Shown here: positions 40,125 to 48,586 of the stretch, in pieces | Position numbering within the stretch: the first letter of the stretch is position 1 | Layout of the letters: each line of letters starts with the position of its first letter | NCBI RefSeq assembly: GCF_003335215.1 | Contig: NZ_QPGB01000003.1 | Location: 248,001 to 312,000, forward strand | Reading direction: 5' to 3' | Length of the DNA stretch: 64,000 bases | DNA from: Parvibium lacunae | GTDB taxonomy: Bacteria; Pseudomonadota; Gammaproteobacteria; Burkholderiales; Burkholderiaceae_D | The notes under the pieces: model-generated | Databases searched by the model: none | Told to the model about the DNA's origin: nothing | Seen by the model: the letters and a program-made list of their open reading frames with translations, nothing else | Made by a program: the position numbers and the translations under genes

Positions 40125-40453
40125 AGGCAAAGTCGATCGATAAGCCGGATTCTGTGTCAGCAACAACGCCAGGCAAGCTGGGTTGTTACGACGGCAATCA
40201 TTCCTCTTGGTGGTATATCGCTATCCCACTCTAGCCACCTACCCGCACACTCACCGGGCCGGGTCAGCGTGTGCCTATTTGGTGTTGCTCCCCGTAGAGA
40301 TTGCCCGTTTCACCCGAACTGAATCGGCTCGTCTCTGTTGCTCTAATCCGCATCTCACGATGGACAGGTATTACCTGCTACGGCGCCCTTTGGAGTCCGG
40401 ACTTTCCTCGTCAAACATGGCTATGTTTGACGCGATTGCCTGATCGACTTTGC
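40125..40453 (-). ncRNA. rnpB: RNase P RNA (type A)
   Basis: Catalytic RNA that matures tRNA 5' ends. On the minus strand: P1 pairing of 11 bp (40442-40452 with 40128-40138), P3 hairpin with a 10-bp stem (40409-40432), the conserved GAGGAAAGTCCGGACTCC of P4 (40392-40409), the later CAGAATCCGGCTTATCG 3' element near 40139-40156, and an ACGGGCAA-type CR segment. Length about 329 bases. Ends are set by P1 and may be off by a few bases. A possible -10 box TAAAAT is at 40461-40466. Located between mraZ and the OmpR-type regulator gene. Confidence 0.95.
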
Positions 40454-43225: not shown

Positions 43226-45754
43226 ATGACTAAGTCAGGCATGGGGACGGTGAAGCAGGCATGGCGACAGTGGGTTGCGCAGGCGCGTAGCACACGTGGG
43301 CAATGGCTCGGACTCACGCTGGGGTTGTGCTGCCTAGCCAGCTATCTTGGCTGGCAAAATGGCTTAGGCCGCATCGATGCACTGTTTTATGACACGGCGC
43401 TCAGTCACTATCGAATTCCAGCAGACCCCCGAATCGTCATCATTGCGATTGATGATGACAGTATTGGACAATTAGGACGATGGCCGTGGTCACGTCAGAT
43501 TCATGCCGCTCTAGTCGAACAACTGACGAGAAGTCACCCCGCCGCGATAGGGCTAGACATTCTCTTTAATGAGCCGGTCGAGCAAGATAATGACTTGAGT
43601 GATCTCACCTTAGCAAAAAGCATCGCCAAAGCCGGGAATGTCGTGCTGCCGGTTATCGCAGAAAGCAGTCGGGCATGGCTCCATCAACCTGGAAGTTCTT
43701 CGCTGCGAGCCGCTTTGCCCATTCCACTGTTGGCCGCTAACGCCCGATCACTGGGCCATATCCATGTCGAATTAGATCAAGACAGTCTGGTGCGGAGTGT
43801 TTTTCTGCGGGAAGGTCAACCGGCAACCGCCATGAAATCTGTCATACCTTGGCCCCATTTTTCTCTCGCCCTGCTGGAAGCAGCTGGGAACTCAATCGCG
43901 CAAGCGCCACTTCCAGGGCAGCGCGTACCGAGTTATCTGAGTAACGCAGCGAATCAGCTGGACTGGCAACGCGATTATTGGATTCACTTGCCTTTTGCGG
44001 GGCCACCCGGGCAATTTACGACCTACTCTTATGCAGCGGTGTTGCGGGGTGAAGTTCGGCCAGATCTGTTGCGCGATAAATTTATTTTGGTAGGTGCAAC
44101 CGCCGCTGGTTTGTGGGATGCTTACCCAACACCGGTGTCAGGCCATGCCCAACCCATGCCCGGGGTTGAAATCAGTGCCAATGTCTTGAATGCCCTGTTA
44201 CAGGAACGCACGATCCAGCACGCCAAGCCCTGGCAAAATGCCATATTTGCCCTGATCTGGCCCTTGCTGGTAATGCTGATGCTAGCCCGAGTGCGCCCCC
44301 GTGTTGCGCTGCTTGGCGTCGTGCTGTTAAGCGGTATGGTGATGTTGCTTAGCTTCTTGGCCCTGCGCTATGGCAATGACTGGTTTGCGCCCGCTGCGCC
44401 CTTGGCGGCAATGCTGCTGGCCTATCCACTCTGGAGCTGGCGACGTTTGGATGCGGCTCATTATTTTATGCATCAGCAGCTTCAGGCTCTCGCGCGTGAG
44501 CCCGATTGGTTGCCGCAACAAGACCTCAGCGAGACCGACACGCCGCGCAGCGCGTGGCAAGTTTTTGGGCCACTGCGCGATCCGCTAGAACAAGACATGC
44601 TGCAGTTGCATGAAGCCATACAACGCATCCGTGATCTGCGGCAATTTGTCAGCGACAGTCTCGAAAGCTTGCCGGATGCAACGTTCGTGACGACCTTGGA
44701 TGGCCATGTACTCTTGGCGAATCGTCAAGCGCGACAATGGTTTCAAAAGTTGGGGCGCGAGCACCTCGATAGTGTTCTGCTGCCGTATCTGTTAAATGAA
44801 ACTACCCCGCAAGATAGCCGCCCTGATTTCAGTTGGTGGCACTTATTCGAAGAAAACCATTATCGACGCTATGCTGAGGGGGTGGAAGGGCGCGATCAGC
44901 TTGGGCGCGATCTCATGATTCACAGCGGCCCGATCTCTGCGGCCCGCGGGCAAACGATTGGCTGGATCGCAACCCTCATCGATATGTCTGCGATTCGGGC
45001 GGCAGAGCGTCAGCGTGATGAAACACTGCGCTTCCTCTCTCATGATATTCGCAGCCCGCTCAGCGCCATTTTGACTCTGGTTGACTTGCAACGCACGCAA
45101 AGCCTGCAACTCCCGATTGAACAAACCCTGGCTCAAATAGAACGCCAGGCGGGACGCTCTTTGACATTAGCGGATGATTTTGTGCAATTGGCACGCGCAG
45201 AAACACAAGAATACCAATTTCAGCACTGCGTGATTGAAGACATTCTGGATCAAGCGATTGATGATAGTTACGCCCTGGCCATCCGGCAGCAAGCAACCAT
45301 CACGACCGATTATGTCGACACTGACTGCGTGTTGATTGCAGATCGGGAATTATTGTTACGGGCCTTGCAAAATTTACTCAATAACGCCTTGAAATACTCG
45401 CCCCCGCAGCGGACAGTTCTGTGCTGGACGCGGATTGAACCGAATCTAACCAGTGCTGATCTCATCGTCGGCATCCGTGATCAAGGCTATGGAATAGCCG
45501 CGGCGGATCAGCCCAAGTTATTTCGACGATTCACACGTTTTCAACACCCGGATCAGCCCAGGATCGAAGGGATTGGACTCGGCTTGACGTTTGTTAAAAC
45601 GGTCGTTGAAAAACATAAAGGGCAGATTGAATTTACCAGTAACCCAGGCCTTGGCACTGAGTTTCGTTTACGCTTTCCCGTGCGTCTCAACACACTGCCT
45701 GCGGTAGCAAGACAGCGAGAGACCGCGCAGACATCATCACACTCTCCTCGCTGA
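43226..45754 (+). CDS. CHASE2-domain sensor histidine kinase
   Basis: Membrane sensor kinase. N-terminal membrane helix (about 28-44), periplasmic CHASE2 domain (about 50-320, with RIVIIAIDDDSI and GLDILFNEP), a cluster of three helices (338-400), a PAS-like segment (about 470-590), HisKA with phosphoacceptor H606 (FLSHDIRSPL) and HATPase_c with N box (LLNNALKYSP), GIRDQGYGI and GIGLGLTFVK. 842 residues, all catalytic motifs intact. It follows the FecR-domain gene by 5 bases; likely phosphorylates the regulator at 40640. Confidence 0.94.
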   Translation: MTKSGMGTVKQAWRQWVAQARSTRGQWLGLTLGLCCLASYLGWQNGLGRIDALFYDTALSHYRIPADPRIVIIAIDDDSIGQLGRWPWSRQIHAALVEQLTRSHPAAIGLDILFNEPVEQDNDLSDLTLAKSIAKAGNVVLPVIAESSRAWLHQPGSSSLRAALPIPLLAANARSLGHIHVELDQDSLVRSVFLREGQPATAMKSVIPWPHFSLALLEAAGNSIAQAPLPGQRVPSYLSNAANQLDWQRDYWIHLPFAGPPGQFTTYSYAAVLRGEVRPDLLRDKFILVGATAAGLWDAYPTPVSGHAQPMPGVEISANVLNALLQERTIQHAKPWQNAIFALIWPLLVMLMLARVRPRVALLGVVLLSGMVMLLSFLALRYGNDWFAPAAPLAAMLLAYPLWSWRRLDAAHYFMHQQLQALAREPDWLPQQDLSETDTPRSAWQVFGPLRDPLEQDMLQLHEAIQRIRDLRQFVSDSLESLPDATFVTTLDGHVLLANRQARQWFQKLGREHLDSVLLPYLLNETTPQDSRPDFSWWHLFEENHYRRYAEGVEGRDQLGRDLMIHSGPISAARGQTIGWIATLIDMSAIRAAERQRDETLRFLSHDIRSPLSAILTLVDLQRTQSLQLPIEQTLAQIERQAGRSLTLADDFVQLARAETQEYQFQHCVIEDILDQAIDDSYALAIRQQATITTDYVDTDCVLIADRELLLRALQNLLNNALKYSPPQRTVLCWTRIEPNLTSADLIVGIRDQGYGIAAADQPKLFRRFTRFQHPDQPRIEGIGLGLTFVKTVVEKHKGQIEFTSNPGLGTEFRLRFPVRLNTLPAVARQRETAQTSSHSPR

Positions 45755-46017
45755 TTCGCTTGGGTACTACTGCCTAGTGCTGTGACTGAGCCGGCTAACC
45801 TAAAGTGCTAGAGGTATTCCCGGATTGAAGCGTCGACAAGTCAAGCCGTACTATTCAAGCTTCATTAATCCCTAAATAAACCATTACAGGTGCCCGCATT
45901 GTCCGGAGGGAGACAAGCACCCTGGCCGTCACACCGCTTGGTCAGCGTTGCGCTAAGTCGAGCCCCCATCATTCAGGTACGTAACAATGGTTAAGCCCCC
46001 TCTGCGACACAGTCTAT

Positions 46018-46815
46018 ATGCATATCATATTGGCCGATGATCAGCCCCTATCCCGTTATGCCTTGCGTCACGTTATTGATAGTGCGCTCACGGCATCCCT
46101 AGGTAACCGCCGGAAAATTCAATTTTTCGAGTGGGAAGACATCCGCCATTTTCCAACGCTACCTGCAGCAGCAGAAGAAGTCTGGCTAGTGATTGACGAA
46201 CATTTTCAAGGTCAGCGCATGCTCGACTGGATCGATGCGACATTCAATACGCCGTCGTCTCATCATAAGCCGCCGCCCAGGCCCCATAAAATCATTCTGG
46301 TCTGCGTTCAAACTGAGTCGAGTCAAATCGGCCTTGCCTTTAAAGCAGGCATCGATGCCTACATTGCAAGACAACAAGATGTCGCGGCCATCCAGCAAGC
46401 GTTTGTTGATATTGCTGCGGGTAAGCGGGTGGTGTGTCTCGCTGCGTCAGTCGAAGTCCAGGCCGCCCCTGGTGCCAATAAAAGTCAAGAACAGAGCAAG
46501 CCTGCAGGTCGGCCATTCGTTGATGTTGCTCACACCACGCGGGCGCAAAAGCCATTCCTTCAACATCGGTCTGTCGATAATCGGCATAATCTTCATCAAA
46601 GCCTCGGTTTAACGGCACGAGAATCAGACGTCTTGCGGCTACTGGCTGACGGCTATTCCAACAAACAAATCGCGCTGCACTTAGCCATTACCGAGCACAC
46701 GGTCAAAGTTCACCTGACTAAAATTTTTAGGGCGCTGCGAGTCAACAGTCGAGCGCAAGCCTTGGTTTATTTGATGCGAAATATGGCCCAACAAGACCCC
46801 CAAGCCCCTGATTAA
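46018..46815 (+). CDS. LuxR-type response regulator with atypical receiver
   Basis: Receiver-like domain (1-140) followed by a long polar linker and a C-terminal LuxR helix-turn-helix (about 196-258, LTARESDVLRLLADGYSNKQIALHL...TVKVHLTKIF). The acidic pair D7-D8 and a possible acceptor D60 are present, but the conserved lysine is replaced by R118 (AYIAR) and the segment around 75-92 is rich in proline and histidine, so phosphorylation may be weak or absent. 265 residues. It starts 263 bases after the kinase gene without a clear ribosome binding site; the gap holds nothing recognised. Confidence 0.88.
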   Translation: MHIILADDQPLSRYALRHVIDSALTASLGNRRKIQFFEWEDIRHFPTLPAAAEEVWLVIDEHFQGQRMLDWIDATFNTPSSHHKPPPRPHKIILVCVQTESSQIGLAFKAGIDAYIARQQDVAAIQQAFVDIAAGKRVVCLAASVEVQAAPGANKSQEQSKPAGRPFVDVAHTTRAQKPFLQHRSVDNRHNLHQSLGLTARESDVLRLLADGYSNKQIALHLAITEHTVKVHLTKIFRALRVNSRAQALVYLMRNMAQQDPQAPD

Positions 46816-46889: not shown

Positions 46890-47318
46890 CTAGGCAGCAT
46901 CATCGACAATTTCATAGTCATGGGTCAGTTCTGCTGTTTTTGCCAGCATGATTGATGCGGAACAGTATTTTTCATGCGATAAGCTGATCGCCCGCGCCAC
47001 ATGGACTGGATTTAACTGGCGGCCACGCACAATGAAATGGAAGTGAATCCGGGTAAACACTTTGGGTTCCGTCTCCGCCCGCGTCGCTTCAAGACGCACA
47101 CTACACCCCCGGACATCCTGACGACTTTTTTTCAATATCATCACCACGTCGTAAGCAGTGCAGCCGCCTGTCCCCAGCAAGACCATTTCCATCGGGCGCG
47201 GGCCAAGATTACGCCCGCCGCCTTCTGGGGCACCATCCATCACGACCGCATGACCACTCCCGGTCTCGGCGATAAAGCTCATGCCCTGTGGGCCAGTCCA
47301 GCTAACCGTGCATTCCAT
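46890..47318 (-). CDS. OsmC family protein
   Basis: OsmC/Ohr-fold protein of the YhfA type, 142 residues. The two redox cysteines of the family are present, in TGGCTAYDV and EKYCSASIML, so thiol peroxidase activity on hydroperoxides is plausible, but the physiological substrate is unknown. Convergent with the LuxR-type regulator gene and at the edge of the large 47319-48157 gap. Confidence 0.9.
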   Translation of the reverse strand: MECTVSWTGPQGMSFIAETGSGHAVVMDGAPEGGGRNLGPRPMEMVLLGTGGCTAYDVVMILKKSRQDVRGCSVRLEATRAETEPKVFTRIHFHFIVRGRQLNPVHVARAISLSHEKYCSASIMLAKTAELTHDYEIVDDAA

Positions 47319-47649
47319 GTTGATTCCTTTTCGTTTCGACGAATTTCTACGTTTAAATTGGTGCTTTCCTTGGCAAGATTATCCCATTACTCCCTGCGAT
47401 CAGGGGCGCGCTATCGCTCAATCTCTGTTTAATTTACAGGCAACAGTAATCTTCTTGCGCATTCGCTCTGTGATTGACTCCGCCCCGCAAAGCATGCGGC
47501 ATTGCAATAAAATTGTTTCGATTTGCAACTTAGCCAACCAACCAAACTTAGCCAGCATGCCAGAAAAAATAAAACAAACCATTGATTTCATTGAATATTT
47601 ATCTATCCACATAAATCAAGCCTTGAAAATTGAAGGCAACAAAAACATC
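47319..47649. other. Intergenic stretch without recognised gene
   Basis: Part of the 839-base gap between the OsmC gene and rplM. It becomes A/T-rich from about 47430. Long frames cross it on both strands but lack ribosome binding sites and recognisable protein sequence. The rest of the gap holds the small RNA candidate and the rplM promoter and leader, listed separately. Confidence 0.6.
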
Positions 47650-47678
47650 TTGCAATGCAGCAAATTTACGCCTACAAT
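47650..47678 (+). promoter_or_regulatory. Sigma70 promoter of the small RNA candidate
   Basis: TTGCAA (47650-47655), a 17-base spacer, and TACAAT (47673-47678) on the plus strand. Transcription would start near 47685. No protein gene with a ribosome binding site begins downstream before the terminator at 47802-47835. Confidence 0.68.
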
Positions 47679-47684
47679 GATGTC

Positions 47685-47835
47685 ATTGAGATTGCTGCAT
47701 GACCCTCATCAACGCAACCCCGTGAACTTGGTTCCTGTTGCAACGAGCGCAGCCTGACCGTCTCACCCAGTGTCTCCTCCACCCTCCTCCTTTGGTGGAT
47801 TAAGCCCAAACGCGAAACCGTTTGGGCTTTTTTTT
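47685..47835 (+). ncRNA. Candidate small RNA, about 150 nt
   Basis: A transcription unit defined by a good promoter (47650-47678) and an intrinsic terminator, with no convincing ORF inside. Just before the terminator a 5-bp stem CCACC/GGTGG (47779-47783 with 47794-47798) presents the loop CTCCTCCTTT, which resembles the anti-Shine-Dalgarno end of 16S rRNA. C-rich exposed loops plus a U-rich terminator tail are typical of Hfq-bound regulatory RNAs. I cannot match it to a named family. It could instead be an orphan leader or a transcript with a very small peptide. Confidence 0.55.
47802..47835 (+). terminator. Intrinsic terminator of the small RNA candidate
   Basis: An 11-bp perfect stem AAGCCCAAACG/CGTTTGGGCTT (47802-47812 with 47819-47829), a 6-base loop, and a run of eight T (47828-47835). 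It reads on the plus strand, although no protein gene lies upstream on that strand within 850 bases. Confidence 0.88.
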
Positions 47836-47889: not shown

Positions 47890-47919
47890 TTGACCCTGCT
47901 TTGAAAAAACCGATATAAT
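47890..47919 (+). promoter_or_regulatory. Sigma70 promoter of rplM-rpsI
   Basis: TTGACC (47890-47895), 18-base spacer, TATAAT (47914-47919). Start of RNA would be near 47926, leaving a leader of about 230 bases before rplM. Confidence 0.78.
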
Positions 47920-47925
47920 TCAAGG

Positions 47926-48157
47926 CTTTTCCTCATGCTTAAGACCTATTGGGAGAGGCCGACAATTTGTAGCAGTAAGGGTGAAATACCGCTTCGCTGA
48001 CTACGCAGAATTGGTAGTAGGTCGCATCAATAAAGTAGTGCTAGTTAGCTTACTGCATGCGATGCGCGGCATGGGGTTTATTAATCTGTGCAGTGCTTGC
48101 GATAGCCAACCATTTCAATGGCTTGAACGACATTGCAAATCAACAAGTGAGTCGAAC
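47926..48157 (+). other. Long untranslated leader of rplM-rpsI
   Basis: The 232 bases between the inferred start of transcription and the rplM ATG. The frame upstream of rplM is open from 47981 but reads as non-L13 sequence. Such a leader is longer than needed for initiation and could carry an autoregulatory binding site for L13, as described for the E. coli rplM-rpsI operon; I do not recognise a specific structure. Confidence 0.4.
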
Positions 48158-48586
48158 ATGAAAACCTTTTCCGCCAAACCGCATGAGGTCCAGCGCGATT
48201 GGTTCGTGATTGACGCGACGGACAAAGTTTTAGGCCGTGTCGCCAGCGAAGTGGCACGCCGTCTGCGTGGCAAACACAAACCAGAGTTTACCCCCCACGT
48301 CGATACCGGCGATTTCATCGTGATTGTTAACGCGTCAAAAATTCGCGTTACCGGCACCAAAGATGAAAACAAAAAGTATTTCCGTCACTCCGGTTACCCC
48401 GGTGGGATTTATGAAACCAACTTCAAGAAGATGCAAGAACGCTTCCCAGGCCGTGCTTTAGAAAAAGCCGTTAAAGGCATGTTGCCGAAAGGGCCATTGG
48501 GTTACGCTATGCTGAAGAAGTTGAAAGTGTATGCGGGTGCCGAGCATCCCCATAGCGCGCAACAGCCTAAAGCACTCGATATTTAA
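48158..48586 (+). CDS. rplM: 50S ribosomal protein L13
   Basis: Large-subunit assembly protein. The start at ATG 48158 ([15 protein letters not shown]) gives 142 residues, the family length; upstream in-frame codons to 47981 are untranslated leader. Core motifs are [31 protein letters not shown], and [16 protein letters not shown]. Nine bases separate it from rpsI, with which it forms the standard two-gene operon. Confidence 0.98.

Follow-up and report, generated by a model that had tools for sequence, protein, structure and literature searches.

A PhaR-operator-like palindrome at the promoter of a conserved S17-type small RNA between osmC and rplM in betaproteobacteria

Among described systems, the closest to the RNA considered here are the RF02278 members ncS03, ncS05, ncS27 and ncS62, which have two hairpins, a CU-rich 5' end and loop, and a terminator, all as at this locus. 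According to PMC5688073, ncS27 is induced 9.7-fold in biofilm and 4.3-fold in glucose medium, its action at the ribosome binding site is a prediction of its authors, and a common upstream motif occurs at three of four ncS genes. Bordetella pertussis S17 is described as having a sigma-A promoter, Hfq dependence, an osmC/coq7 neighbourhood and RNase E trimming to 67 nt, and as repressing mRNAs at their ribosome binding sites; its promoter did not need BvgA, and the authors postulated an unknown repressor (PMC11722255). Neisseria NmsRA and NmsRB (RF02877) are also anti-Shine-Dalgarno small RNAs (sRNAs) of central metabolism and differ, as reported, in being tandem copies under RelA control. A further comparison is Sinorhizobium meliloti MmgR (alpha-r8), an sRNA linked to PHB whose promoter carries a dyad for AniA/PhaR; PhaR/AniA is reported to repress its gene (PMC12542648, PMC8401924) and MmgR to act on phasin synthesis. 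For Cupriavidus necator, a 2021 review called the riboregulation of PHB undeciphered (PMC8401924).

The window (the whole 64,000-nt stretch of Parvibium lacunae DNA that was analysed) contains an sRNA that resembles S17 in promoter type and spacing, in its long primary transcript, and in an osmC/coq7 neighbourhood and exact 26-nt core found in other Bordetella records. The two differ in that S17L has 190 nt and the window transcript, by inference, about 151 nt, in that Bordetella has coq7 between osmC and the sRNA and no rplM in the 1.3 and 2.0 kb examined to the right, and in that S17 levels follow BvgAS. Compared with the ncS family, the host genome holds one copy over the cut-off; it belongs to the CCACC/GGTGG subtype and, unlike the CTATAT and CCAAC subtypes, carries a PhaR-like palindrome. 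From these sequence comparisons we propose, with a probability of about 60%, that S17-type sRNAs are members of the PhaR regulon across betaproteobacteria, such that PHB would free the promoter and translation for carbon uptake and acyl-CoA metabolism would be shut down, with PhaR as the repressor postulated for Bordetella S17. This design would parallel the alphaproteobacterial PhaR-MmgR circuit, the RNAs themselves being apparently unrelated. The RF02278 family and its mode of blocking ribosome binding sites were already known, and what is new is the PhaR-like operator at the S17-type promoter; our search found no paper linking PhaR to the family, an absence that is unproven as subscription literature lay mostly outside that search. 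The features of the locus are as follows.

46890..47318, minus strand: osmC (PF02566), conserved left neighbour, from Pfam
47647..47663, plus strand: PhaR-like palindrome ATCTTGCAATGCAGCAA, 2 of 17 mismatches to the consensus YTKNTGCRNYGCANMAR (PMC12849132), overlapping the -35
47650..47678, plus strand: sigma-70 promoter TTGCAA-17-TACAAT, from sequence, compared with the S17 promoter TTGCAT-17-TACTAT
47685..47770, plus strand: leader of the primary transcript, probably cut off, by inference from S17 processing
47771..47835, plus strand: probable mature double-hairpin sRNA, full-length RF02278 match
47772..47780, plus strand: candidate pairing site 1, the single-stranded 5' end GUCUCCUCC, by analogy with S17 Site 1
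47778..47799, plus strand: hairpin 1, stem UCCACC/GGUGGA, with loop CUCCUCCUUU as candidate pairing site 2, from folding and stem covariation
47802..47835, plus strand: intrinsic terminator, 11-bp stem and 8 T, from a sequence scan
47890..47919, plus strand: separate rplM promoter TTGACC-18-TATAAT, from a sequence scan
48158..48586, plus strand: rplM (ribosomal protein L13), conserved right neighbour, from Pfam

An RF02278 RNA at a conserved locus

An initial annotation had read this interval as encoding an independent trans-acting RNA with its own promoter, an anti-Shine-Dalgarno-like loop and a terminator. The promoter is present at 47650-47678 and the terminator stem of 11 bp at 47802-47829 with the 8-T run behind it, and between them a hairpin pairs 47778-47783 with 47794-47799 and exposes CTCCTCCTTT at 47784-47793. 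Within this loop, CCTCCTTT is identical to part of the 16S rRNA 3' end, as had been claimed. Taken alone, the promoter (9 of 12) and the terminator are not beyond chance for the region, where the scanned 2.5 kb held 5 promoter-like sites against 2.2 expected and 4 terminator-like sites against 3.5 expected; they are credible because of the Rfam covariance match and the conservation of the core in other genomes. That covariance search, a check that the annotation had suggested, matched RF02278 ("Betaproteobacteria toxic small RNA") to 47771-47835 at 69.5 bits (cut-off 50, E 5.8e-12) over the full model (positions 1-64 of 64), and the RNA has the double hairpin and CU-rich single-stranded stretches of that family. 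The anti-Shine-Dalgarno RNA at 47771-47835 is therefore a new member of a known family, and we are highly confident of both that membership and a mechanism at ribosome binding sites. The cmscan matches to this stretch at E up to 1 numbered four; among them NmsRb (RF02877) reached 36.4 bits against a gathering score of 52 and anti-hemB (RF02837) 26 bits against 49.5, and MmgR was not named. The CcsR-type RNAs of Rhodobacter, with which the annotation had compared it, share its C-rich loops, and that identity was set aside, no match of that name being among the four.

The start of the transcript is predicted at 47685, 7 nt after the -10, and by analogy with S17 the mature RNA is probably a processed 65-nt 3' part with its 5' end at 47771. 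Also named by analogy, the 5' single-stranded GUCUCCUCC may be a second pairing site besides the loop, its final three bases sitting inside the predicted stem. The CCACC/GGTGG stem, for which the annotation had looked to covariance, covaries across 70 copies that came from a covariance-model search, which favours pairing: pairs 2 and 4 of hairpin 1 form in 70 and 69 of the 70 copies (54.7 and 33.1 when permuted) and pair 5 in 47 (permuted 25.5), with C-G, T-A and A-T exchanges and with pairs 1 and 3 invariant. The 5' end reads TGTCTCCTC in 64 of these copies, CGTCTCCTC in 5 and CGTCTCTTC in 1. Among the matches listed, 77 of 122 exact-core copies have a run of 8 T, more than have any other length, and a T precedes GTCTCC in 113 of 122. 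A -10-like element lies directly before the core in L131, L041, L050, L070, L123 and L143, so that transcription there may yield the short form directly, with no leader. L086 (Zoogloea), L115 (Cognatazoarcus) and L131 each contain the exact core twice within one stretch.

Evaluating conservation across 60 genomes, the host included, revealed RF02278 at E≤1e-3 in 48, of which 40 exceed the cut-off, one genome having as many as 19 matches; the host genome (2.63 Mb in 18 contigs) has a single copy above the cut-off and 10 weaker matches (E≤10) of a kind that control genomes give as well. The best loci of 29 relatives carried the CCACC/GGTGG core in 13, and osmC and rplM flank all 13 of these copies; the other 16 loci have neither gene in the examined flank, which is shorter in L028, L039 and L040. 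The species collection has the exact 26-nt core in at least 119 of its stretches. Among the matches listed there are 122 exact-core copies, 89 of them with enough flank for neighbour calls, and the arrangement osmC(-)/sRNA/rplM(+) holds in 55 of the 89, osmC alone (within 2 kb) in 20 and neither gene in 14. The osmC-only group contains Bordetella and Achromobacter records, including L071, in which coq7 lies between osmC and the exact core as it does for S17, and L060, in which the exact core has osmC alongside. Because L071 has the coq7/osmC neighbourhood given for S17, the window sRNA and Bordetella S17 are most probably orthologues, a comparison made through these two records and with the 26-nt core, the 27-nt core of S17 being given in its paper as a figure. 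In this comparison, the piece tested of the putative glycosyltransferase downstream gave no Pfam match. The osmC-[sRNA]-rplM locus is, by sequence comparison, conserved among betaproteobacteria, and it looks like the ancestral place of the S17-type sRNA.

Around the locus, the distance from core to rplM is just 150-200 nt in many relatives, and the best RplM identities are 88-89%, with Limnobacter and Cupriavidus records among them. As had been stated, no protein gene on the same strand lies close upstream, the nearest with a known domain being the LuxR-type gene that ends at 46815. It follows a CHASE2 histidine kinase gene (together 43226-46815), and Pfam recognised no receiver domain in the LuxR-type regulator. 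Two mechanical plus-strand ORFs, 47037-47432 and 47281-47757, overlap osmC in antisense or the promoter, and the Pfam search matched neither to a family. Elsewhere in the window, class A RNase P RNA (RF00010, 229 bits) lies at 40125-40451 on the minus strand, and a tRNA scan of the 64 kb returned none.

The palindrome at the promoter

A TTGC-N3-GCA palindrome recurs at or just before the -35 in the listed upstream regions. It fits the PhaR operator consensus YTKNTGCRNYGCANMAR (PMC12849132), the operator TG[N]TGC[N]3GCAA of Herbaspirillum PhbF (PMC3206438) and the published S. meliloti PhaR sites (PMC12542648); in Ralstonia and Herbaspirillum the PhaR palindrome is reported to be backed by EMSA or footprint (PMC12849132, PMC3206438). 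The window site, 47647-47663, is not significant alone, as the level of ≤2 mismatches is reached 17 times in the 64 kb, once with 0 mismatches, inside the coaE coding sequence. Across genomes the palindrome is frequent, with a PhaR-like site (≤2 of 17 mismatches) in the 200 nt preceding 99 of the 117 exact-core copies among the matches listed (shuffles 4.65%) and of 85 of 99 cluster representatives once similar upstream sequences among these matches were collapsed; 18 of the 117 are without one at this level. Among the 60 genomes, the host included, 14 of 19 CCAC-type copies have such a site (shuffles 4.1%) and 13 of the 14 osmC-rplM copies carry TTGC[AG]N[CT]GCA; 12 of those 14 reach ≤2 mismatches, L034 having 3 and L037 having 4 and no half-site pattern. 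The best-scoring site of L024 and of L031 differs from that at the promoter. In 47 of the 117 listed copies the palindrome overlaps a -35 that is followed by a -10 after 16-18 nt, whereas the shuffled control averaged 6.1 and reached at most 14 of 99 sites, and this speaks for PhaR control. The host genome has 13 occurrences of the pattern TTGCRNNGCANCAA and 0 of its reversed form.

Phasin genes, which are known PhaR targets, served as positive control, and 28 of 29 phasin upstream regions (300 nt, the host's included) held a PhaR-like site against 9.5% in shuffles; upstream of phaR itself the count was just 8 of 28 (shuffles 6.9%). The stretch from -1000 to -800 gave 5 of 100 and the stretch before rplM 0 of 19. 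A control 330-530 nt downstream gave 15 of 115, above chance (shuffles 3.3%), and we guess that conserved rplM codons are perhaps responsible, as with the window site 48210-48226. The other RF02278 subtypes are at chance (3 of 50; shuffles 4.3%), so the PhaR-like operator is found at the S17-type subtype and is not in excess at others, and PhaR control of the whole family is unsupported. Upstream of the CTATAT and CCAAC subtypes, about 20-80 nt from the core, another element recurs (tgatatcagaaatggaaattgg / aataaagcagac), carried by L015, L017, L019, L023 and others, and in some of their copies the -10 is covered by a half-palindrome, TGC-N3-GC(A/G); these paralogues are probably under separate regulation. 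The upstream motif reported for ncS genes in PMC5688073 may be either the PhaR-like palindrome or this other element.

The host encodes its own PhaR (G000:C1:355475) with both PHB_acc domains. PhaR is present in 51 of the 60 genomes, the host included, and in all 36 core-bearing genomes tested (36 of at least 119 loci, mostly named isolates). PhaR and RF02278 occur together in 46 of the 60, with 2 genomes having the sRNA only, 5 PhaR only and 7 neither (Fisher 6e-5), a statistic confounded by kinship. In the two PhaR-less sRNA genomes the best sites have 5 mismatches in 200 nt, and 4 and 3 in 400 nt, and these genomes are a weak test because their copies adjoin neither osmC nor rplM.

A doubtful but serious alternative keeps the sRNA as described and takes the palindrome for the site of another regulator or for an extended -35 element. 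Consistent with this, TTGC in the palindrome doubles as the first four bases of the -35 at the same 47 of 117 listed copies, and a conserved upstream element of another kind marks the other subtypes, in which PhaR-like sites are not in excess. Against this, another 42 of the 117 listed copies have a -10-like hexamer 36-52 nt beyond the palindrome, which would then sit upstream of the -35, though the criterion is loose (shuffled control: mean 21.8, maximum 37). The base frequencies of the centre and right arm also resemble those of phasin sites, both sets having been picked with the same consensus. We favour PhaR as the regulator.

Candidate targets and competing accounts of the RNA

Motif counts did not predict targets at a significant level. 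The site-1 8-mer GGAGGAGA stands before ATG 4 times against 5 in the reversed control, AAAGGAGG before starts 5 times against 2, and GGAGACA, which is complementary to the 5' end of the sRNA, 39 times against 25, with control GGAGATA at 16 against 19 (Fisher p 0.11). Of 22 GGAGACA hits whose ORF had 80 aa or more, 10 went to Pfam and were chosen by eye, so the target list is biased; they comprised two TctC and two DctP binding proteins, a sugar/MFS transporter, an AMP-binding ligase, an FGGY kinase and a CoA transferase, besides a response regulator and PilJ. Several of these genes resemble published S17 and ncS27 targets and are leads only.

GGAGACA also precedes the start of aceE, which in the host genome has a PhaR-like site with 0 mismatches starting 258 nt upstream and whose ribosome binding site carries an 8-nt stretch complementary to the 5' end of the sRNA, AGGAGACA.

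G000:C1:369357 and 369606: PhaR-like site and sRNA complement at aceE (L162, L287, L312)

PhaR and the sRNA may thus converge on aceE in this genome. Among 30 genomes, the host included, a PhaR-like site with ≤2 mismatches lies within 400 nt of aceE in 12 (p 1e-4, with the expected rate of 12.5% assumed from shuffles of shorter stretches), and a site-1 complement of at least 7 nt is present in 16, a count without a background rate.

That the RNA is instead a general anti-Shine-Dalgarno decoy or toxin, competing with 16S rRNA without defined targets, appears improbable. Cloned relatives are said, by a source citing Kimelman 2012, to inhibit growth of E. coli, and the loop has CCTCCTTT in common with the 16S rRNA 3' end. 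Overexpression of ncS27 is likewise reported to slow growth (PMC5688073). Yet, according to PMC11722255, S17 represses some reporters and spares others, its repression of BP2158 tracks site-specific mutations and their compensation, and S17S is not similarly toxic, with only a modest effect at entry into stationary phase.

A leader or attenuator of rplM would be on the right strand, 323 nt before that gene, but we give this reading very little credence: the terminator and the separate rplM promoter, which the annotation had noted and which matches at 11 of 12 positions, speak against it, and 34 of the 89 exact-core copies with enough flank (among the matches listed) are without the osmC-plus-rplM arrangement, some with no rplM found nearby. 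An independent RNA acting in trans is the best reading. The rplM leader itself, 47926-48157, is long (about 230 nt from the inferred start), has a GTG in frame at 47981 and gave no Rfam match. That the transcript is a small-protein mRNA is the faintest prospect: a 25-26 codon ORF (the end of ORF 47281-47757, most of it within 47685..47770) does run to 47757 and S17L reportedly holds a 32-codon ORF too (PMC11722255), but a conserved leader peptide, which the annotation had named as a refuting outcome, was set aside, with no homologue seen by eye in 13 orthologues, no Pfam match, and conservation sitting in the double hairpin.

A proposed PHB-responsive circuit

We suggest that the sigma-70 promoter at 47650 would give a transcript of about 151 nt, which a cut near 47771 would convert to a stable 65-nt form whose C/U-rich 5' end and loop would pair with purine-rich ribosome binding sites, so that less protein would be made from genes of carbon uptake and of acyl-CoA/pyruvate metabolism. 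PhaR over the -35 would hold transcription down until it is taken up by newly formed PHB granules. From where the site lies, over the -35, one expects the promoter to be repressed as long as PHB is lacking and released once PHB forms, and on these sequence grounds PhaR probably does repress the sRNA until PHB accumulates. The same release logic is published for phaP1, and PhaR is reported to activate at phaP3 (PMC12849132); for mmgR, negative control by AniA is published (PMC8401924). At copies whose palindrome lies farther upstream than the -35, either repression or activation of the phaP3 kind is conceivable, and the sign of control may differ between copies. If granules do release the promoter, carbon storage would signal a cut in carbon intake.

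RF02278 RNAs are widespread, and a PhaR operator at the S17-type copy is a specific and testable answer to what switches them on, one that fits the glucose induction of the family member ncS27. If true, PHB storage in betaproteobacteria would gain a post-transcriptional arm, and carbon storage would be tied to RNA control of nutrient uptake.
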